Assembly (NCBI GenBank): GCA_019307745.1 | Contig: JAFDJA010000004.1 | Location: forward strand, 1-40,047 | From: Deltaproteobacteria bacterium | GTDB lineage: Bacteria; Desulfobacterota; DSM-4660; Desulfatiglandales; HGW-15 | Length of the DNA: 40,047 nt | Direction: 5' to 3' | Shown here: positions 3,128-19,229 of the stretch, piece after piece | How positions within the stretch are numbered: the first letter of the stretch is position 1 | Layout of the letters: every line of letters starts with the position of its first letter | Program-made: the position numbers and the translations under genes | The notes under the pieces: generated by a model | What the model saw: the letters and a program-made list of their open reading frames with translations, nothing else | The model's database searches: none | Told to the model about the DNA's origin: nothing

Positions 3128-4060
3128 ATGAGCGATCTTAAGTCTGGAAGTAATCTTGAAAAAATTCTGAAGACCGGGCACTTTGCCTTTACTGGCGAAT
3201 GCGGTCCGCCAAAAGGTGGAAATGTTGAACACCTGAAAGAAAAAATGGCCCACCTGAAAGATAAAGTTGATTCTGTAAACATTACGGACAACCAAACAGC
3301 TGTGGTCAGAATGGCAAGCTGGGCAGCCTCAAGCATTATGATACAGGAAGGAATGGAACCAAATTTCCAGATGGTGTGCCGCGACCGTAACCTACTGGCA
3401 ATTATGAGTGATATTCTGGGCACCTATGCCATGGGCGTCAGGAACATGCTCTGCCTTTCTGGAGACCATCAGGGATTTGGCAACCATCCCGAAGCAAAAA
3501 ACGTGTATGACATAGATTCTATGCAGCTTATTGCCCTGGTTAAACACATGAGAGATGAAGGGAAATTCCTCAATGGTGAAGAAATAGACGAACCACCAAA
3601 ATTATTTATCGGGGCTGCGTCCAATCCTTTTGCAGATCCTTATGAATTCAGAGTTCACAGACTTGCCAAAAAAATTGCCGCGGGTGCCGATTTTATCCAG
3701 ACTCAGTGCATCTATAATATGGATAAATTTAGGAATTTCATGAAAAAGGCAGTTGATATGGGCCTCCATGAAAAGGCCTATATTCTTGCGGGCGTCACCC
3801 CCATGAAGAGCGTTGGTATGGCAAGATACATGGCCAAATCAGTACCGGGCATGGATGTCCCAGATTCACTGATTGACAGGCTCAAAGGTGCGGGAAAAGG
3901 CAAAGTTTCTGAAGAAGGTATTAAATTTGCCCTTGAACAGATCCAAGAATTTAAAGAGATGGAAGGTGTTGCCGGGGTACATCTTATGGCCATCGAATGG
4001 GAGCACAAGGTACCTGAAATAGCCGAACGGGCAGGAGTCCTCCCAAGACCACAGGTTTAG
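3128..4060 (+). CDS. metF: Methylenetetrahydrofolate reductase, MetF type
   Basis: 310-aa ORF with MTHFR motifs (FTGECGPPKGGN, DSVNITDNQTAVVRM, NMLCLSGDHQGFGNHPEAKNVYDIDSMQL, GADFIQTQCIYN, ILAGVTPMKS). Followed by hdrCBA-mvhD-metV. Confidence 0.92.
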   Translation: MSDLKSGSNLEKILKTGHFAFTGECGPPKGGNVEHLKEKMAHLKDKVDSVNITDNQTAVVRMASWAASSIMIQEGMEPNFQMVCRDRNLLAIMSDILGTYAMGVRNMLCLSGDHQGFGNHPEAKNVYDIDSMQLIALVKHMRDEGKFLNGEEIDEPPKLFIGAASNPFADPYEFRVHRLAKKIAAGADFIQTQCIYNMDKFRNFMKKAVDMGLHEKAYILAGVTPMKSVGMARYMAKSVPGMDVPDSLIDRLKGAGKGKVSEEGIKFALEQIQEFKEMEGVAGVHLMAIEWEHKVPEIAERAGVLPRPQV

Positions 4061-4113
4061 ACCTGATACATTATCTTAACTTTATATATATATAATAGAT
4101 TTACCAAGAATCA

Positions 4114-4746
4114 ATGATGAGGAGAAAAAACATGACCTCACCTGCAGTAAAATTTGAGCCAGAAAAAGCCAAATCCCTGACAGAACAGGTTATAGAGCTA
4201 TCAGGTCAGAACCTGTTAGCCTGCTATCAATGTAAACGCTGTGCTGCCGGGTGTCCGGTCGCTGAAGAAACAGGTAATTTCACTCCCAATAAACTGATCA
4301 GGATGATTATCTTAGGTGAAGGCGAAAAGGCACTCAATAACGAACTTGTATGGCGGTGTGTATCCTGTTACACCTGCGGTACTCGCTGCCCAAACAATAT
4401 CCATACCGCCCGGATTACCGAAACCCTGAAAAAGATGGCGAAAAAAGGGCATGCAAAAGTGCTCAGGCCCAGGGTGGCAAATTTCCACAAATCATTTATC
4501 GACTCAGCCGTTCGCTGGGGCAGGTTAAATGAAGGAGAATTTGTTGGATGTTATGAATTAAAAAACACGTTCAGTTTTTTAAAGAAACTCGATTTTGTGG
4601 CCCTTTTCAAAGAGCACTTGACCCAGGCAAAGCTTGGAATAAAGATGCTCAAAAAAAAGAGGTTGCATTTTGGTTTTCAATCATCAAAGGGCAGATCTGA
4701 AATCAAAAAGCTTTTAAAAAAGGCTGAAAGAAAGGCAGGACTTTAA
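4114..4746 (+). CDS. hdrC: Heterodisulfide reductase subunit C-like protein (two 4Fe-4S sites)
   Basis: CYQCKRCAAGCPV and CVSCYTCGTRCPNNIH, each CxxCxxxxCP-like; lies directly upstream of hdrB. The start could be the internal Met at 4132. Confidence 0.9.
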   Translation: MMRRKNMTSPAVKFEPEKAKSLTEQVIELSGQNLLACYQCKRCAAGCPVAEETGNFTPNKLIRMIILGEGEKALNNELVWRCVSCYTCGTRCPNNIHTARITETLKKMAKKGHAKVLRPRVANFHKSFIDSAVRWGRLNEGEFVGCYELKNTFSFLKKLDFVALFKEHLTQAKLGIKMLKKKRLHFGFQSSKGRSEIKKLLKKAERKAGL

Positions 4747-4913
4747 AAAAAATCAGGTCTTCTGTTTGAATTCTGGAAATGACTTCCCCTAAACTATTAC
4801 GCAGAGCCATGGAACCCTCTAAAAAGGGTGGGCTCCCACGGAGTGAAAAATTCAGACAAAGAGGTAATTTAAAAAGGAAGCCGAAAAAATACAACTATAT
4901 TTTAGGATAAATC

Positions 4914-5795
4914 ATGACGGAAATAGGATACTACCCTGGATGTTCTCTTAAAGGATCAAGCAAACTCTATGATATTCAGAGCCGTAAGGTATTTAAGGAA
5001 CTGGGAATAGAACTAAGGGAACTGGATGACTGGAACTGCTGTGGTGCCACATCTGCAGCCAAAACAGATGATTTTATGGCTACAGCGATGCCCGCCAGAA
5101 ACCTTGGGATTGCCGAGGCATCAGGCCTGTCTGAAATCATAATCCCCTGTTCTGCCTGCTACAGCAGGATGCTGCTGAGCCAGAATGCCCTTCAGGAAGA
5201 TCAGAACCTGAGAGATGAGATTAATGAAGATCTATTATACAAAGTCGCTGGAAACATCAATATAATGAGTATCCTGGAGCCGCTTTGTAGAACCGTAGAA
5301 TCCGGAGCCATGAAGGAAAAGGTTGTAAAATCCCTGAAAGGGTTAAATCCTGCCTGTTACTATGGATGTCTGCAGACAAGATTTCCCGGGGACATTCCAA
5401 TCCAGGACAGCATTGAAAACCCTCAGGGCATGGAGAACATACTCAAGGTGCTGGGGATAAAAAAGCCTTTGGACTGGGGTTATAAAACAGATTGTTGCGG
5501 GGCATCTTCATCTGTTTGTGATGCTGATGCATCAATTCGCCTCATGTCCGGGATTATGAAGGATGCAGTAGCAAGGAAGGCGAACTGTTTTGTTACAACA
5601 TGCCCATTCTGTCAACTGAACCTTGACGCATACCAGAACCAGTTCTGTGAAAAATACGGCATAGAGGAAAGACTGCCGGTCTTCTTTATCACTGAATTGA
5701 TCGGTATAGCAATGGGCATGAACGCTAAAGAACTGCAGATTGACAGACACTTTATTGACGCAATCAGACTCTTAAAGGAGTTGGAACTAATATGA
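4914..5795 (+). CDS. hdrB: Heterodisulfide reductase subunit B-like protein (two CCG domains)
   Basis: 293-aa ORF with two CCG motifs: NCCGATSAA...PCSACYSRM and DCCGASSSV...TCPFCQLNL. Its stop overlaps the hdrA start by 4 nt. Confidence 0.92.
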   Translation: MTEIGYYPGCSLKGSSKLYDIQSRKVFKELGIELRELDDWNCCGATSAAKTDDFMATAMPARNLGIAEASGLSEIIIPCSACYSRMLLSQNALQEDQNLRDEINEDLLYKVAGNINIMSILEPLCRTVESGAMKEKVVKSLKGLNPACYYGCLQTRFPGDIPIQDSIENPQGMENILKVLGIKKPLDWGYKTDCCGASSSVCDADASIRLMSGIMKDAVARKANCFVTTCPFCQLNLDAYQNQFCEKYGIEERLPVFFITELIGIAMGMNAKELQIDRHFIDAIRLLKELELI

Positions 5796-8700
5796 GTGAT
5801 AATAATAACAACAAAACAGGATCAGTCCTTGTAGTGGGCGCTGGAATAGGCGGTCTGCAGTCTGCCCTTGATCTCGCGGACAGCAGTTTCAAGGTGCATA
5901 TGATTCAGAAGGAATCATCAATAGCCGGAACCATGGCCATGCTGGACAAAACCTTCCCAACTGGCGACTGTGCCATGTGTATGCTCTCGCCGAAACTGGT
6001 TGAGGCAGGACGTCACCCGGACATTGACATACACACAATGGCAGAGATTATTTCCGTTGAAGGGGACCCCGGCAACTATACAGTCAAAGTAAGACAGCAA
6101 CCAAGATTTGTTGATCCTGACAAGTGTACAGGCTGCGGTCTTTGTGAAGAAAAGTGCCCTAAAAAAGTGTCGAGTGAATATGAACAGGGACTAACCAACA
6201 GAAAGGCCATCTTCTCCCTTTTTCCACAGGCATTTCCAAATACAAGGGTCATAGATAAGGAAAACTGTATATTCCTAACAAAAGGCAAGTGCGGGACATG
6301 TGAGAAGGTATGCCCTGCAGGGGCAATAAAGTATGATGACACTGAAAAGGAATTTGAACTCAAGGTAGGGGCCATAATCCTTGCCCCTGGTCTTGACAGA
6401 TATGATGCCAGAGTCCGTGGTGAGCTGGGTCTGGGAAGATGGCCGAATGTGGTCACATCCCTTCAGTTTGAGCGGATACTTTCTGCGTCGGGTCCTTTCA
6501 GCGGAGTTGTTCAGAGACCAAGTGACAACAAACATCCTCAAAAGGTGGCATGGATACAGTGTGTCGGCTCAAGAGACCCACACACTGCTAACCCCTGGTG
6601 CTCATCTGTTTGCTGTATGTATGCCACTAAACAGTCTATTATTGCGAAAGAGCATGACAGTAACGTTGAGCCCACAATCTTTTACATGGAGCTCAGGGCC
6701 TTTGGAAAAGACTTTGATAAATATGTGGACAGAGCAAAAAATGACTACGGTGTTCAGTACAAACGGGCAATGATCTCAGCAGTAAGGGAGGAGCCGGAGA
6801 CAGGCAATCTCATTTTGAGGTATGCGAATGAGCAAGGGGATGTTATCGATGAGACCTTTGATCTGGTCGTCCTTTCTATCGGGTTTGAACCCCATCAAGA
6901 CGCAGTTGATTTTGCAGACACCTTTGGAATTGAACTGAATAATGACAACTTTGCCGCTACTACCCAATTCACCCCTGTTGAGACATCAAGGCCGGGGGTA
7001 TACGTAACAGGCACATTCCAGGGTCCCAAAGATATCCCTGAGACTGTTATGCAGGGGAGTGCTGTGGCAGGTAAGGCAATGTCCCTTATCAGTGATGCCA
7101 GAGGGACAGAGATCACAGTAAGGGAGCTTCCTCCTGAAAAGGAAACTTCCGGTAAAGAAACAAGAACAGGCGTATTTGTCTGCCGCTGCGGAATCAATAT
7201 CTCCCAGACAGTTGATGTTGTAAAGGTAGCTGAAGACGTGAAACAAGAGCCGGGTGTAGTGTATACGGAAGAAATGATGTATGCCTGTGCCCAGGACAGC
7301 CAGGACAAAATCAAGGCAATTGTGAAAGAGCAGGAACTTAATCGCGTGGTAGTTGCTTCATGCACCCCCCGCACCCATGAACCCCTGTTTCAGGAAACCA
7401 TAAGAGACGCGGGCCTTAACAAATATCTGTTTGAACTTGCAGATATTCGCGAACAATGCGCCTGGTGTCACATGGGCCAGAATGAGACAGCCACTGAAAA
7501 GGCTCTTGACCTTGTAAAAATGTCTATTGCCAAGATCAATCTCGGCGAACCCATACAATCTGATTCCGTCTCTGTCACACATGCTGCCCTGATTATAGGC
7601 GGGGGCATGGCAGGAATAACCTCCTCTCTGGCCCTTGCGGACCAAGGATTCGACGTACTTTTGGTGGAACAGGATCAGGAGATTGGCGGTTTATGCAGAA
7701 ATGTGTACAGAACCCTTGATGGCAGTGATGTTCAGACATTCTTAAAAGAAAAAATCAATGAGGTCAAAAATAATCCCAGAATTACTATAAAGACGAATGC
7801 TCAAGTTATAAAGACTGACGGATTTGTCGGAAATTTTCAATCCACACTGAGTGATGAATCCACTTTTGATCACGGGGCTATTATCCTTTCCACAGGCGGA
7901 ATCGAGTATAAGCCTGAAGAGTATCTCTATGGTGACGATGACAGGATCATTACACAAAGAGATCTGGAAAAAAACCTTGAGAAAAAGTCGCCGGAGACAG
8001 GTGAACGATATGTCATGATCCAATGTGTAGGCTCCCGTGAAGAACCCCACAACTACTGCTCAAGAATCTGCTGTCAGGATGCGATTAAGAATGCAATCAC
8101 AATCAAAGAGAAAAACCCTGATGCCCATGTTACAATCCTTTACAGAGACATCAGGACCTATGGGCTGAGAGAAGAATATTATGAAAAGGCTCGAAGCCTT
8201 GGTGTAGCCTTCATACACTTTGAGCCTGAAAAAAAACCGGAAGTTACTACGGGACCAACCGGCCTGAATATCCGGACCTATGATTATGTGATAAATAGGG
8301 ACATTGAATTAAATGCCGATTATATTATTCTGTCCACTGGTCTGAGGCCCCATCCATCCACAGAAAAGGTTGGGTCCATGTACAAGGTAACAAGAAATCA
8401 GGACGGATTTTATCTAGAGGCACATGTCAAGCTGAGACCAGTGGATTTTCCAAGTGAAGGCATCTTTGTTGCAGGCCTTGGTCATGCACCCAAGAACCTT
8501 GATGAGACAATAACACAAGCCCTGGCTGCGGCTGGAAGAGCAGGAGTCCTGCTTTCAAAGGAGCGGTTGGGGGTATCAGGAGTCATCGCAAAGCATGACC
8601 GTAATATCTGTATGTCATGTCTTACTTGCTTAAGACTCTGCCCGTTTGACTCCCCTTATCTAGATGAAGAAGGCAAGATAAGCCACAATGAAGTAAAATG

Positions 8701-8812
8701 TATGGGCTGCGGCATATGTGCCGGAATTTGTCCAGCCAAGGCATTTCAGATCAATAGTTTTAGAGACGAACAGATATTGTCAATGATCGATAAAGCTGTT
8801 GAAATGAACTAA
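5792..8812 (+). CDS. hdrA: HdrA-like FAD/iron-sulfur protein, tandem (double) HdrA architecture
   Basis: 1006-aa ORF with two dinucleotide-binding motifs (VLVVGAGIGGLQSALDLA, ALIIGGGMAGITSSLALA), two WIQCVGSR/MIQCVGSR-CC blocks, internal ferredoxin-type clusters and a C-terminal 2x[4Fe-4S] ferredoxin domain. Confidence 0.93.
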   Translation: MSDNNNNKTGSVLVVGAGIGGLQSALDLADSSFKVHMIQKESSIAGTMAMLDKTFPTGDCAMCMLSPKLVEAGRHPDIDIHTMAEIISVEGDPGNYTVKVRQQPRFVDPDKCTGCGLCEEKCPKKVSSEYEQGLTNRKAIFSLFPQAFPNTRVIDKENCIFLTKGKCGTCEKVCPAGAIKYDDTEKEFELKVGAIILAPGLDRYDARVRGELGLGRWPNVVTSLQFERILSASGPFSGVVQRPSDNKHPQKVAWIQCVGSRDPHTANPWCSSVCCMYATKQSIIAKEHDSNVEPTIFYMELRAFGKDFDKYVDRAKNDYGVQYKRAMISAVREEPETGNLILRYANEQGDVIDETFDLVVLSIGFEPHQDAVDFADTFGIELNNDNFAATTQFTPVETSRPGVYVTGTFQGPKDIPETVMQGSAVAGKAMSLISDARGTEITVRELPPEKETSGKETRTGVFVCRCGINISQTVDVVKVAEDVKQEPGVVYTEEMMYACAQDSQDKIKAIVKEQELNRVVVASCTPRTHEPLFQETIRDAGLNKYLFELADIREQCAWCHMGQNETATEKALDLVKMSIAKINLGEPIQSDSVSVTHAALIIGGGMAGITSSLALADQGFDVLLVEQDQEIGGLCRNVYRTLDGSDVQTFLKEKINEVKNNPRITIKTNAQVIKTDGFVGNFQSTLSDESTFDHGAIILSTGGIEYKPEEYLYGDDDRIITQRDLEKNLEKKSPETGERYVMIQCVGSREEPHNYCSRICCQDAIKNAITIKEKNPDAHVTILYRDIRTYGLREEYYEKARSLGVAFIHFEPEKKPEVTTGPTGLNIRTYDYVINRDIELNADYIILSTGLRPHPSTEKVGSMYKVTRNQDGFYLEAHVKLRPVDFPSEGIFVAGLGHAPKNLDETITQALAAAGRAGVLLSKERLGVSGVIAKHDRNICMSCLTCLRLCPFDSPYLDEEGKISHNEVKCMGCGICAGICPAKAFQINSFRDEQILSMIDKAVEMN

Positions 8813-8961
8813 GGACATCTGTCTATACTATAAAAGGTTTCCCTTCACGGGGCAGAATTGACATCCGGTGTTTCCGATCAGGAAAAATGCCATTTTCAGG
8901 TGAAAATTAACCATTCAAACGGCCTGTAAATACTAATTTATTAATCTCGAGGAGACTGTAG

Positions 8962-9459
8962 ATGAGTCAGGAAGCTGCGGCGGAGAAAATGAAACAAGAT
9001 ACTCCCCGTATTGAAAAACAGCGAGAAACCCCAGCAGACTGGGAGCCGAATATTATTGCATTTGCATGTCACTATTGCGCCTTTGCTGCTGCAAATCTGG
9101 CAGGAGTCATGAGGCTCTCGTACCCTACAAATGTAAAGATAATCAGGCTGCCCTGCACTGGCAAGCTCGATTATATATATCTTCTTCGCGCCTTTGAGCG
9201 AGGTGTTGACGGCATTTTTGTGGCCGGCTGACTGCCTGGTCAATGTCATTTCCTGGAAGGAAATACAAACGCGGCACAGAGAGTTCAACATGTGAAGAGT
9301 CTTTTGACAAAGGTAGAAATTGACCCGGAACGTGTGCATATGTATAATCTTTCCGCGGCAATGGGACCCATGTGGGCGGAGATCTGCACAAAATTTACAG
9401 AAAAAATCAAAAGTATGGGCCCCTCCCCCATTTGGTGGGCGGACAAGGAACGCACTTAA
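8962..9459 (+). CDS. mvhD: Selenocysteine-containing MvhD/VhuD-like iron-sulfur subunit; UGA at 9229-9231 read as Sec (165 aa)
   Basis: The ORF track stops at 9231 (...GVDGIFVAG*). The same frame continues U-LPGQCHFLEGNTNAAQRVQHVKSLLTKVEIDPERVHMYNLSAAMGPMWAEICTKFTEKIKSMGPSPIWWADKERT to TAA at 9457-9459, which is the expected C-terminal part of MvhD. The UGA sits where MvhD normally has Cys (VAGC.PG.CH). Flanked by hdrA and metV. Confidence 0.92.
9229..9264 (+). promoter_or_regulatory. Candidate bacterial SECIS element (UGA plus downstream hairpin)
   Basis: UGA 9229-9231; perfect 6-bp stem ATTTCC (9248-9253) / GGAAAT (9259-9264) around loop TGGAA, with G at loop position 2. There are 22 nt from the UGA to the loop. 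This geometry fits bacterial SECIS elements. Confidence 0.75.
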
Positions 9460-9474
9460 CAGGAGTGATTGACA

Positions 9475-10179
9475 ATGATTGTTGGAAAACAAAAGACCTT
9501 AGAAGAGATATGGGATATTATTAAGGATTGTAAAAAAATCCTGGTTTTTGGATGTAATACCTGTGTTGCAGTGTGTCATGAAGGAGGAAACAAGGAGGCA
9601 GAAGTACTCGGTTCCATCCTTCGAATGAAATCAAAACAGGAAGGATCAGATACAGAGATAACAGACAGCGGCATTGAAAGGCAGTGCGAGCACGAGTATT
9701 TTGAACAGGCTGCAGAGGCCATAGAATCAGCAGATGCTATACTCTCAATTGCCTGCGGCGCTGGCATACAATTTCTGGGGGAAAAATTTCCCCATAAAAT
9801 TATTCTTCCAGGGCTTAATACCACTTTTATTGGAGTTGTAGATGCGCCCGGAGAATTCAGTGAACGCTGCCTTATGTGCGGAGACTGTATTCTCCATCTG
9901 ACAGGTGGAATCTGCCCTATCACACGATGCTCAAAATCTATTATGAATGGCCCTTGCGGGGGAAGTCATGACGGGCTATGTGAAATCGCGCCTGATGTCC
10001 CATGTGCCTGGCATCTGATCTACGAAAGGTTGGAGAAACAGGGAAGGCTTGACCTGATGACTGAATTTATTCCTTTCAAGAACTGGCTGACATCCAGAGA
10101 TGGAGGTCCCCGTAAACAGTCACGTCCTGATATCATGACCGACGATAATACAGCAGGTGAACCGGAACAGACCGGATGA
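9475..10179 (+). CDS. metV: MetV-like zinc/iron-sulfur protein (MTHFR C-terminal-type partner of MetF)
   Basis: NTCVAVCHEGGNKEA, SIACGAGIQ..., CLMCGDCILHLTGGICPITRCSKSIMNGPCGGSHDGLCE. Aggag ribosome-binding site at 9461 before ATG 9475 (an alternative TTG start is at 9469). Confidence 0.87.
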   Translation: MIVGKQKTLEEIWDIIKDCKKILVFGCNTCVAVCHEGGNKEAEVLGSILRMKSKQEGSDTEITDSGIERQCEHEYFEQAAEAIESADAILSIACGAGIQFLGEKFPHKIILPGLNTTFIGVVDAPGEFSERCLMCGDCILHLTGGICPITRCSKSIMNGPCGGSHDGLCEIAPDVPCAWHLIYERLEKQGRLDLMTEFIPFKNWLTSRDGGPRKQSRPDIMTDDNTAGEPEQTG

Positions 10180-10279: not shown

Positions 10280-10367
10280 TGGTGCCTGGGACGAGAATCG
10301 AACTCGTACACACAAAATGTGCGAGGGATTTTAAGTCCCTTGCGTCTACCAATTCCGCCACCCAGGC
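10280..10367 (-). tRNA. tRNA-Leu (anticodon UAA), CCA encoded
   Basis: Reverse complement GCCTGGGTGGCGGAATTGGTAGACGCAAGGGACTTAAAATCCCT...GAGTTCGATTCTCGTCCCAGGCACCA: 7-bp acceptor stem, anticodon loop CTTAAAA, variable arm and T arm. Confidence 0.95.
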
Positions 10368-14899: not shown

Positions 14900-16000
14900 T
14901 CATAAATCAAGGACTTCCTTAAGAGAACCAATTGCCTCTTCCAGCCCTATCCTGAAATCACCGTTAATATCATCACCAACAGTAACTCCGCTGGGTGTCA
15001 TTCCCGTGATCACCTGAAGGCTCCTGATAACATCAGCAAGGGCCTCGGCCAGGGGATCTTCCTCAGCATTTCTCACGCACCTGGAATAATAACTTTCTGT
15101 CTTTTCAATGTGACTCACTATTCCCCATTCAAGGGTCATATACCATGCCTGGGTATTGTGATTCCGGTTGGAGGTTGAAGTCCAGTACTCCGCAGTATTA
15201 TTCGGGGATTTAAAATACTGGTCATCAATTGAGGGGCTGTCGTAATCATCATTGTTTATAGAACGGAGTTCCTTGACATTAGGCAGTCTCCAGTCATCAT
15301 GGTTCGCTAAATTCAGGCCCTCGCAGTACTGAAGGCCCCCTTCCCAGTCTGTTGGAGGAGAATTACCATCCTGTTCCCACATAAGACCGGTATTATTATC
15401 TGTAACCGTACCGTTGCCATTGCCGGAAAAGGACATTTCATTCCCAGGCGTACCCCTTACACAGCGAACATAGTGAGCCTTGCTGGAAGCTTCAGTTTTT
15501 GGATGGGCCCCTATCCCGCCTCCCGAATTCACAACCCACACCTTGCTAGAGCCAAAGGCCGGAACCGTGTTTGACCACCAGTACTCCGCCTCGGTACTGC
15601 TCGTGAAATAGGCTGAATCCAGTGGAGGCTTTGCAGTATCGTGATTTACAATGCTGAATAATTCATGGGCGCTGGGAAGGCGCCAATCCTCACTTTCCCC
15701 CAGTGTGAGGTCCGCACAAAAAATAACCGCATCATCCCATGTGGTTGTTGTGCCGCTTTCGCCTTTCTGCCATATGAGCCCTGTCACATTATCGGTCACT
15801 GTGCCATTATCGTGATCGGTGAAATCAGGAGGATTAAAATCATAGTCAGAATCCTCTCCAAAAGTTTCTGTTGAAACAATTGTCTGCCCTGTATCAGGAA
15901 GGGCTGCCATGCTCCATGAAAAAACTTCATTGGAAACAACCAGGCAGAAGATCACGACAAGTACTATTCTGCAGGACATGCCGGTTACTGATTTATTCAT
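14900..16000 (-). CDS. Secreted protein with two tandem DUF1566 (Lcl C-terminal) domains and a C-terminal EF-hand/dockerin-like tail
   Basis: Signal peptide; two NGTVTDNxTGLxWxxxG...DWRLPxxxEL...YxRCVR units; tail LADVIRSLQVITGMTPSGVTVGDDINGDFRIGLEEAIGSLKEVLDL. Confidence 0.8.
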   Translation of the reverse strand: MNKSVTGMSCRIVLVVIFCLVVSNEVFSWSMAALPDTGQTIVSTETFGEDSDYDFNPPDFTDHDNGTVTDNVTGLIWQKGESGTTTTWDDAVIFCADLTLGESEDWRLPSAHELFSIVNHDTAKPPLDSAYFTSSTEAEYWWSNTVPAFGSSKVWVVNSGGGIGAHPKTEASSKAHYVRCVRGTPGNEMSFSGNGNGTVTDNNTGLMWEQDGNSPPTDWEGGLQYCEGLNLANHDDWRLPNVKELRSINNDDYDSPSIDDQYFKSPNNTAEYWTSTSNRNHNTQAWYMTLEWGIVSHIEKTESYYSRCVRNAEEDPLAEALADVIRSLQVITGMTPSGVTVGDDINGDFRIGLEEAIGSLKEVLDL

Positions 16001-16103: not shown

Positions 16104-19100
16104 CTAAAGACCGGCCGCGGACCTGAGATAATAGACCGCCTCTTCCAGCCCGACCCTGGAATCTTCATTGATATCAAGGACACCGGTAACATAGGACGGG
16201 TTCATGCCTGCTGTAACCTGAAGGGCGATGACCACCTTTGTAAGGTCATCCATTGCTTCAGGGAACAGGGCCTTGGGATACCTGTAGGCCCTGTAGACGG
16301 CGTTTGGCAGATTCAGGTTATCTCCCACATAGTCCTTCCGGCCCTTATCAGTATAGGGGCTTATATATTCCCATACTACATCAGGGTAATCTCTGCGCAC
16401 TGATGTGTCGGTCTGATCTGATTCCGCGATATAGGTAATTTCGAAGATATGCCCCATGTCAGAGCTGCATATCAGGGTATTGCCATTGAGTAGACGCTGG
16501 GCACTTCCGCCCATGACACTGAAAAAATTCAGGTTGCCGTCCGCGTAGTACATCCATTCCACCTGGTTGGACAGATCTTTTGTCTGTTTGTGCCTGTCAT
16601 GCTCATCACCGCCCTGGGGCCAGGAGGAATAATCCGCATCCGGAGGGTCTACATAACTGCCGGCCGGTGATCCATTAGATTGGAGATACCCGTTTACCTC
16701 AAAGATATAATTCTGGGGAGTGTACTCAAAAAGATACTGGCCGTTATTAAAAACCAGAAAATTGCCTGCCCCTTCCCTGCTGTCGTCAGGAATCCATGTC
16801 ACATTATGAGTGGCTCCTATCTGCTTGTGTCCTGGCGTTGACTTAGTCCAATCGGTCTCAACTGAAGGAGAGTCACCTGCTCCGTATCTCGCGGGATCAC
16901 CGAATCTGTAGAGAAAATCCCCGTCTAGATCTGATGCCTCTGCGGTTGTGGTGTTGTGATCAATAACATAGAACTCTCCAAGTGAAGAGTTTATGACTAT
17001 CTGATCCTTTGCGGCATTATAGTCGATGGAGTTGCAATCCAGCCAGTTGGCCGCAAGGGGCCTTCCCGGCATATTGATATATATTTTGCCGGCATCAGAC
17101 TGGGTGTTGGAGGCATGGTCAATGAATCGCCATTCCCATATGATATTGCCGCTGCTGTCCACCTCGATAATGACATCCATGGATTCGTCACCTGAAAGGG
17201 AATCTCCTGAATAACCGGCAGCATCGGCCTCTTCCTGTGACACCAGCCTGTTGGCAAGGATAAGTGTAGTGTAGTCACCTAAAGAAGAGTTGTAGATCCT
17301 GGTAAAATCATTATGGAGTTTGTAATCCGAAGGCGCGGTATATATCCATACCGTGTTACCGCTCCAGTCCATTTCATGGATAGCATCAAATTCGCTTATA
17401 TCATCTGTATCAGCAACCAGGATATTGCCTGCATGGCCTGTATAGTCCAGGGCGCGGGGATTGCCTCCTGCCGGCCATGTATTAACAGTATCTCCGTCCA
17501 TATCGACAAGATAACTGGTGTTCCCTGACCCAAACAGGGTATACCCTTCATATGATCTTTCTGAATCCCAGTATTTGCCGCCGGTTGCCCGCTGCAGGGA
17601 TTCATAATCATCACTGCCTTCATACGGAGACGGGGATTTTCCTGTAATGGTGCTGCCCGGAGTCAGGTCCATATTCTCAAGGGCAGGATGGTCTGTGGGA
17701 TAACGATAGGCACGGAAAGCTGAATTGAACATGGCTATATTATCTCCGATAACGGTAACTCCGGAGGTGGAATTGTCCTCTGTGAGGGGAATAATGTATT
17801 CCCAGACAACCCTGCCGTCTGATGTGACCTCCACAATATGGCCTTCTGTCATATTGCAGATAAGGGCGTTTCCATTTGGGAGAATCTGGCAACCTGAACC
17901 TATCTGACTCAGCATGTTAAAATGTGTCTCAGGGGTATAACTCCACACCTGCTGTCTTGATATGTTTCTGGCCATTTTATCAATGCCCGCTGCAGTGTCG
18001 GACAGGTCGTATCCCGCAAGGTGAGGCCAGACAAAATCGCCGGTATCGGTGCGTGAAGAATCAAGAAAGGGGTTGAACACAATGGCGCTGGACTGGTTTG
18101 TCCTTTCAAACATGTACTGGCTGTTATTAAAGATCATCAGGTTATTATCAAGGCCACTGACCGGGCCGGTATAAGCGTTTCCATTCGTAACGGCACTCGC
18201 GCTGTGCCCGAAAAGGTCAGAATAGATAAAGTGGACGTCATGGGAACCGCCGAACTGCTTGTGGCCCGGGCTTGACATTGTCCAGTCGGTCTCAACTGAA
18301 GGGGCGTCACCGGATTCATACCTGGCGGGATCTCCCATGCGGTACAGGAAATCACCCGATACCCCAGAGGCTGCTGCAATACTTCCGAGTGGATCACCAG
18401 CGATAAAGGTGCCGTCATGATCTATCACATAGGACTCACCCTGAACAGAGTTGGTGATAATATAACCTGTTTTTGGGTTATAATCCATGCCATTGCAGTG
18501 CAGCCAGTCATACTTGAGGTTTCTTCCCGGTATATTGATATTAAGCTTTTCCGGAAAGTCGGATATTGTGCCGTAGGGGATAATAAGAGCCTCTGAGTCA
18601 GTATCCTGCACCAGATGGTCCCAGAACCACCACTCCCATATTATGTTTCCTCCACTGTCAATCTCGCAAATTACGTCCATGGTGGCCGGACCCTTGTCAG
18701 TTTCAGTGCAGGAATCACATCCATTGGCCTGTGCGATTGAGCAGTCAACCACCTTATTGGCTATAAACAGAGTGGTGTACTCTCCCAGGGCCTTGTTATA
18801 TATCCTGTCCCAATCATGATGAAGATAGTAATCATCCCAGTCGTAACCTGTATTGGAGTCAAACCCCGAGGCCTCAAAACGCCACACCTCAACATCCGAC
18901 CAATTATATTCAACAAGCCCTTCCGAATTGCTAGGATCCGCTTTTGAGGAATCGAGAACATTACCCACATGGGATGATCCGTCAGCAGGATCAATATAGT
19001 CAAGCAGCCGCGGGTTAGCTCCGGTCTTACTCCATACATTGACGACCCGGCCCTGCATGTCAATCAAATAGCCCTTTTTCATACCAAACAGAGTATAGCC

Positions 19101-19229
19101 ATTGCAGGCAGATTCTTCATCATGGTATAGCACTTCTGTCGGTATCTCTAAAAGATCATAAGCATGAGCTGAACACAGGGTTATCGCGAAAAAACAACTC
19201 ATCATAATGATCGCCAAAATCACTCTCAT
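16104..19229 (-). CDS. Secreted tandem arylsulfotransferase-like (ASST-type beta-propeller) protein with a C-terminal EF-hand/dockerin-like tail
   Basis: Signal peptide. Two homologous halves: NGYTLFG.../EGYTLFG..., NANRLV-type lines, DWLHCNGMDYNPKTGYIITNSVQGESYVIDHDG / NWLDCNSIDYNAAKDQIVINSSLGEFYVIDHN, GGSHDVHFI / GATHNVTWI. Tail LTKVVIALQVTAGMNPSYVTGVLDINEDSRVGLEEAVYYLRSAAGL. Confidence 0.78.
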   Translation of the reverse strand: MRVILAIIMMSCFFAITLCSAHAYDLLEIPTEVLYHDEESACNGYTLFGMKKGYLIDMQGRVVNVWSKTGANPRLLDYIDPADGSSHVGNVLDSSKADPSNSEGLVEYNWSDVEVWRFEASGFDSNTGYDWDDYYLHHDWDRIYNKALGEYTTLFIANKVVDCSIAQANGCDSCTETDKGPATMDVICEIDSGGNIIWEWWFWDHLVQDTDSEALIIPYGTISDFPEKLNINIPGRNLKYDWLHCNGMDYNPKTGYIITNSVQGESYVIDHDGTFIAGDPLGSIAAASGVSGDFLYRMGDPARYESGDAPSVETDWTMSSPGHKQFGGSHDVHFIYSDLFGHSASAVTNGNAYTGPVSGLDNNLMIFNNSQYMFERTNQSSAIVFNPFLDSSRTDTGDFVWPHLAGYDLSDTAAGIDKMARNISRQQVWSYTPETHFNMLSQIGSGCQILPNGNALICNMTEGHIVEVTSDGRVVWEYIIPLTEDNSTSGVTVIGDNIAMFNSAFRAYRYPTDHPALENMDLTPGSTITGKSPSPYEGSDDYESLQRATGGKYWDSERSYEGYTLFGSGNTSYLVDMDGDTVNTWPAGGNPRALDYTGHAGNILVADTDDISEFDAIHEMDWSGNTVWIYTAPSDYKLHNDFTRIYNSSLGDYTTLILANRLVSQEEADAAGYSGDSLSGDESMDVIIEVDSSGNIIWEWRFIDHASNTQSDAGKIYINMPGRPLAANWLDCNSIDYNAAKDQIVINSSLGEFYVIDHNTTTAEASDLDGDFLYRFGDPARYGAGDSPSVETDWTKSTPGHKQIGATHNVTWIPDDSREGAGNFLVFNNGQYLFEYTPQNYIFEVNGYLQSNGSPAGSYVDPPDADYSSWPQGGDEHDRHKQTKDLSNQVEWMYYADGNLNFFSVMGGSAQRLLNGNTLICSSDMGHIFEITYIAESDQTDTSVRRDYPDVVWEYISPYTDKGRKDYVGDNLNLPNAVYRAYRYPKALFPEAMDDLTKVVIALQVTAGMNPSYVTGVLDINEDSRVGLEEAVYYLRSAAGL

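Follow-up and report, generated by a model that had tools for sequence, protein, structure and literature searches.

The DNA analyzed here (the window) is a stretch of 40,047 nucleotides. It contains an mvhD gene which, with a probability of about 95%, is a real bacterial selenoprotein gene of a MetFV-HdrABC-MvhD complex, in which the UGA at 9229-9231 would be decoded as selenocysteine (Sec90) by way of a hairpin. The features on which this reading depends are the following.

8962-9459, plus strand: mvhD, 165 aa with Sec90, identified by PF02662, PDB homologues and an AlphaFold model
9229-9231, plus strand: UGA, the presumed Sec90 codon; TGA in 82/82 subfamily genes, Cys in the aligned Cys homologues, purifying selection 3' of the UGA
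9248-9264, plus strand: bacterial SECIS hairpin; supported by its fold, by covariation and frozen silent sites, and by its fit to the bSECIS model

The mvhD reading frame

The mvhD frame opens with the ATG at 8962, behind a ribosome-binding site (AGGAG, 8950-8954), runs into the in-frame TGA at 9229-9231 and continues for 75 further codons up to the TAA at 9457-9459. The original prediction held that ORF calling hides this gene at the UGA. This is the case: under table 11 no plus-strand ORF of at least 100 aa is called at mvhD, and the output of the caller at this place is an antisense ORF of 183 aa (8941-9492). The claim that the frame past the TGA encodes the C-terminal half of MvhD was also borne out. 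With the TGA read through, the product gives a whole-profile match to PF02662 (positions 1-123, E 9e-47; 158.6 bits versus a gathering score of 22.3), and solved MvhD chains from the PDB match it on either side of the TGA. A full-length MvhD is only obtained when the TGA is translated. The AlphaFold model of this product has a mean pLDDT of 87 and agrees with 7bkb_F and 5odc_D with an rmsd of 0.9-1.3 A and a TM to target of 0.93-0.95. All five conserved Cys/Sec positions of MvhD are present and a [2Fe-2S] cluster is predicted for the protein. The UGA occupies, as had been proposed, a position at which the aligned Cys homologues have Cys.

We estimated the selection on both sides of the TGA by pairwise comparison of the window with orthologues in two family relatives, and of these two orthologues with each other. 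Over 68 codons 3' of the TGA pN was 0.08-0.16 versus a pS of 0.59-0.78. The pN over 62 codons on the 5' side was similar (0.06-0.09), and in the other two frames the pN/pS pattern was reversed. These data bear on the idea that the TGA arose by a sequencing error or by a mutation that turned mvhD into a pseudogene, so that the gene would be broken or in reality a Cys gene. The source of the window, a fragmented metagenome assembly, gives some reason for such a concern. However, the codons behind the TGA are under purifying selection, the genome contains Sec machinery, and the identical TGA occurs in 80 independent contigs; on the last ground we reject this explanation, the probability of which is negligible.

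Readthrough at Sec codons in general competes with termination. The UGA could therefore serve as a regulated stop, with a deliberate 89-aa form made under low selenium and the full form being just one of two products. In the model, however, the 89-aa form is devoid of Cys95 and of the last strand and last helices of the fold, and we consider a regulated stop very improbable. We infer instead that the UGA is translated as Sec90.

The hairpin and the selenocysteine machinery

The hairpin begins 16 nt past the UGA and has a G-containing loop, in agreement with the original prediction. It consists of a stem of 7 bp (9248-9254 with 9258-9264) and the loop GGA (9255-9257); the folding z-score for 9241-9273 is -2.6. 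The bSECIS model, as quoted in PMC13188914, comprises a loop of 3-9 nt with a G in the first two loop positions, an upper stem of 4-16 bp and a spacing of 16-37 nt from UGA to loop. The mvhD hairpin fits this model with a 3-nt GGA loop, 7 bp and 23 nt from UGA to loop. A search of Rfam returned no family at the gathering score.

The hairpin overlaps the codons for the conserved peptide H-F-L-E-G-N, and conservation of the protein is hence a possible confounder. On the comparison with Cys homologues we reject the idea that the hairpin is a side effect of this peptide, since Cys90 homologues which keep CH[FY]xxGN choose their synonymous codons freely; their Gly codon is mostly GGC. Only 2-6 of the 7 stem positions are paired in Cys90 homologues (n = 77), whereas all seven are paired in 81/83 Sec90 genes, which in the stem region use the codons CAT, CTG, GAA and AAT nearly without exception. 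Furthermore, in the middle pair of the stem one partner is the second base of the Phe/Tyr codon (TTC/TAC) and the other is the third, silent base of the Gly codon (GGA/GGT). Across 104 Sec90 genes, drawn from several MvhD subfamilies, this pair is T-A in 64 cases and A-T in the other 40, and it is mismatched in none. Relatedness accounts for much of this count of 104/104, because a tree built without the stem-coded residues contains only about three switches, and the figure obtained by shuffling can for that reason not be read as a probability. Relatedness does not explain, however, that the silent site tracks its partner at each switch.

The Sec machinery that the original prediction implies was found in the assembly with one exception. 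A tRNA-Sec (73 bits; called as tRNA-SeC by ARAGORN), selB and a selA that is broken off at a contig end are present; for selD there was no match over the cut-off in this assembly, which is 92% complete with 5.5% contamination. The presence of selD thus has to be deduced from relatives: a selD with an in-frame TGA is found in nine of the nine family relatives searched, and for this reason an assembly gap is the likely cause of the missing gene. In 18 of 20 genomes that carry an mvhD of the Sec90 subfamily a tRNA-Sec scored over the cut-off. Note that a tRNA-Leu (anticodon taa; 10283-10367, minus strand), which lies just downstream of metV on the opposite strand, yields a spurious tRNA-Sec signal below the cut-off. 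With these components the hairpin at 9248-9264 would recruit SelB and the Sec-tRNA, and decoding of the UGA at 9229-9231 as Sec90 would yield a [2Fe-2S] subunit of 165 aa.

The Sec90 clade and two alternative Sec positions

Relatives were found by scanning one genome per species with the patterns DW[EKS]PNI[IL]A and FACHYCAF. The scan resulted in 103 relatives, and we retained the 80 that ranked highest. Among these best 80 of 103, all from other genomes, codon 90 is TGA in 80/80 and Cys in none, while Cys occurs at 36, 39, 65 and 95 in every one. A Cys form ought to reach a score no lower than that of a TGA form, which makes the lack of one among the best 80 informative. The 80 best relatives have TGA rather than TGC or TGT at this codon and, as the original prediction required, none of the close homologues seen terminates there; the closest matches from the same family (genomes G012 and G004) have TGA at the identical codon. 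Altogether, TGA is found at codon 90 in 82/82 distinct subfamily genes, the window included, which is far beyond chance. In addition, 345 genomes of the phylum were drawn independently of the patterns; five matches reached E <= 1e-60 in them, the window and G004 included. Each of the five has one TGA, and in the three new matches it is likewise at codon 90.

The relatives come from Desulfofustis, Desulfopila, Desulforhopalus, Desulfobacterales and many Nitrospirota MAGs; the subfamily spans the two phyla Desulfobacterota and Nitrospirota. In the MvhD tree it forms a single clade (82 rows, SH-aLRT 99 by a quick method), which is weakly resolved inside. Judged from these sequences, the MetFV-linked Sec90 MvhD is a conserved and apparently obligate selenium form. 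The absence of a Cys alternative among the relatives suggests that the MetFV complex of this clade depends on selenium.

A different distribution emerged among 74 MetV-linked MvhDs in the window's order. These were chosen by similarity to the MetV and MvhD of the window, and the counts are not population frequencies: 48 have Sec39 (CxxU), 19 no Sec and four Sec90, namely the window and three relatives; one of the rest has Ser at 39 and in two the start is incomplete. The Ser in place of Cys or Sec is found in L098 of genome G046. Many MvhDs from other subfamilies likewise carry their Sec at residue 90. A second mvhD in the same genome as the window (contig C112, 8687-9055; L060 8681-9079, minus strand) has TGA at codon 90, adjoins another hdrA and has A-T as the variable pair of its SECIS stem. 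A family relative, genome G014, has two MvhD genes (L237 and L243) with TGA at codons 39 and 90 both, and L237 adjoins metV. MvhD has in this way two alternative Sec sites, 39 mostly in the MetV-linked MvhDs of the window's order and, in this clade, 90 only.

The operon, electron transfer and known systems

Six genes lie together at 3128-10179 in the order metF-hdrC-hdrB-hdrA-mvhD-metV, which confirms the MetFV-type setting proposed for mvhD. The partners of mvhD are:

3128-4060, plus strand: metF, methylenetetrahydrofolate reductase (PF02219, 7.6e-42)
4114-4746, plus strand: hdrC-like gene (NCBIfam HdrC models, 2.9e-17, below cut-off)
4914-5795, plus strand: hdrB-like gene (PF02754 CCG, two domains; CoB_CoM_SS_B 2.1e-46, below cut-off)
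5792-8812, plus strand: hdrA with two flavin-binding halves, 1006 aa (HdrA2 model, 6.9e-290)
9475-10179, plus strand: metV (PF12225, 1.3e-36; translation)

HdrA has FAD/NAD-binding matches at about 9-435 and 595-860, and its gene contains no in-frame TGA. The metV ORF is listed from the TTG at 9469; the ATG at 9475 is the likelier start. While metF heads the operon in the window, it comes after metV in most Sec90 relatives. Elsewhere in the window, 16104-19229 on the minus strand encodes a protein of 1041 aa whose second half has a distant match to arylsulfotransferase (PF05935); an Lcl_C-domain protein (14900-16000) lies next to it. No phage match was found.

The MvhD homologues of methanogens serve Mvh, Fdh and Elp modules (PMC12350162), and the same genome has further MvhD copies. 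The protein could on these grounds be a selenoprotein that serves a different Hdr complex. This is improbable in view of the HdrA-MvhD-MetV order, which is kept in nearly all Sec90 subfamily loci, and of the fact that the subfamily is one clade. We favor the reading that the subunit would join the MetFV-HdrABC-MvhD methylenetetrahydrofolate reductase complex and, by homology, move electrons between the iron-sulfur chain and the HdrA flavin.

In the model, residues 36, 39, 65, 90 and 95 are at or just past the carboxy ends of strands 31-36, 58-63 and 84-90. Sec90 lies together with Cys36, Cys39, Cys65 and Cys95 at the pole where the cluster is expected. Since there are five Cys/Sec residues and the cluster takes four ligands, at least one of them may do redox chemistry. 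Sec90 is probably either a cluster ligand or a redox partner of Cys39 that tunes the potential or rate, and it could in this way tune or relay electron transfer from one to the other of the MvhD cluster and the flavin of HdrA. In methanogen Hdr complexes electrons first cross the clusters of HdrA, then reach the [2Fe-2S] cluster in MvhD/ElpC and from there the bifurcating flavin; this last distance is about 25 A, and the mechanism is described as unknown (PMC12350162). As alternative sites of Sec, residues 39 and 90 are the two of interest for this unexplained electron step between MvhD and the HdrA flavin. A speculative and rather unlikely extension is that residues 39 and 90 form a redox-active selenenylsulfide/dithiol relay by the [2Fe-2S] cluster, with Sec at one or both by lineage, which aids the step of about 25 A. 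If true, the relay in the MetFV-linked Sec90 clade would be obligately selenium-based.

Standard ORF calling halves MvhD or replaces it by an antisense ORF, so that sulfate reducers and Nitrospirota may seem to lack part of the MetFV-HdrABC-MvhD complex. The literature searched contained no account of a MetFV-linked MvhD clade with Sec90 only and no Cys form. MvhD proteins with Sec as such have long been known, as the original prediction stated for methanogens and some Deltaproteobacteria. Sec FrhD/MvhD proteins were described in 2006 with 19 bacterial examples, of which Syntrophobacter fumaroxidans accounted for eight (PMC1794560), and a report of 2009 gave four for Desulfobacterium autotrophicum HRM2 (PMC2702500); they occur in Deltaproteobacteria and in Clostridia, including Moorella thermoacetica (PMC1794560, PMC2702500). 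The mvhD of the window has PF02662, the recoding of UGA to Sec and a neighboring hdrA in common with these genes. The described Sec FrhD operons are mainly of the hydrogenase type hdrA-frhD-frhG-frhA, whereas its partners here are MetF and MetV. The archaeal VhuD family, with CxxU, has two Sec (PMC13188914), and in 9sfi_K (PDB 9sfi/9t1s) a non-standard residue (X) stands at each of the two positions that align with 39 and 90. While archaeal VhuD can hold two Sec, the MvhD of the window has Sec at 90 only and Cys at 39; its hairpin also differs from the archaeal system in that it lies within the coding sequence just past the UGA, as in bacteria. Because both sites are Sec in other MvhDs and non-standard in 9sfi_K, Sec at either of them is not new to the family. 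The MetFV-HdrABC-MvhD complex of Moorella thermoacetica (Mock et al. 2014, as reported in PMC5861303) has the same six gene types as the complex predicted here and an HdrA with two flavin domains; the operon in the window differs in that metF comes first. Together, these comparisons identify mvhD as a well-supported addition to the known Sec MvhD/FrhD proteins, and the modest new point is which Sec site is used where.
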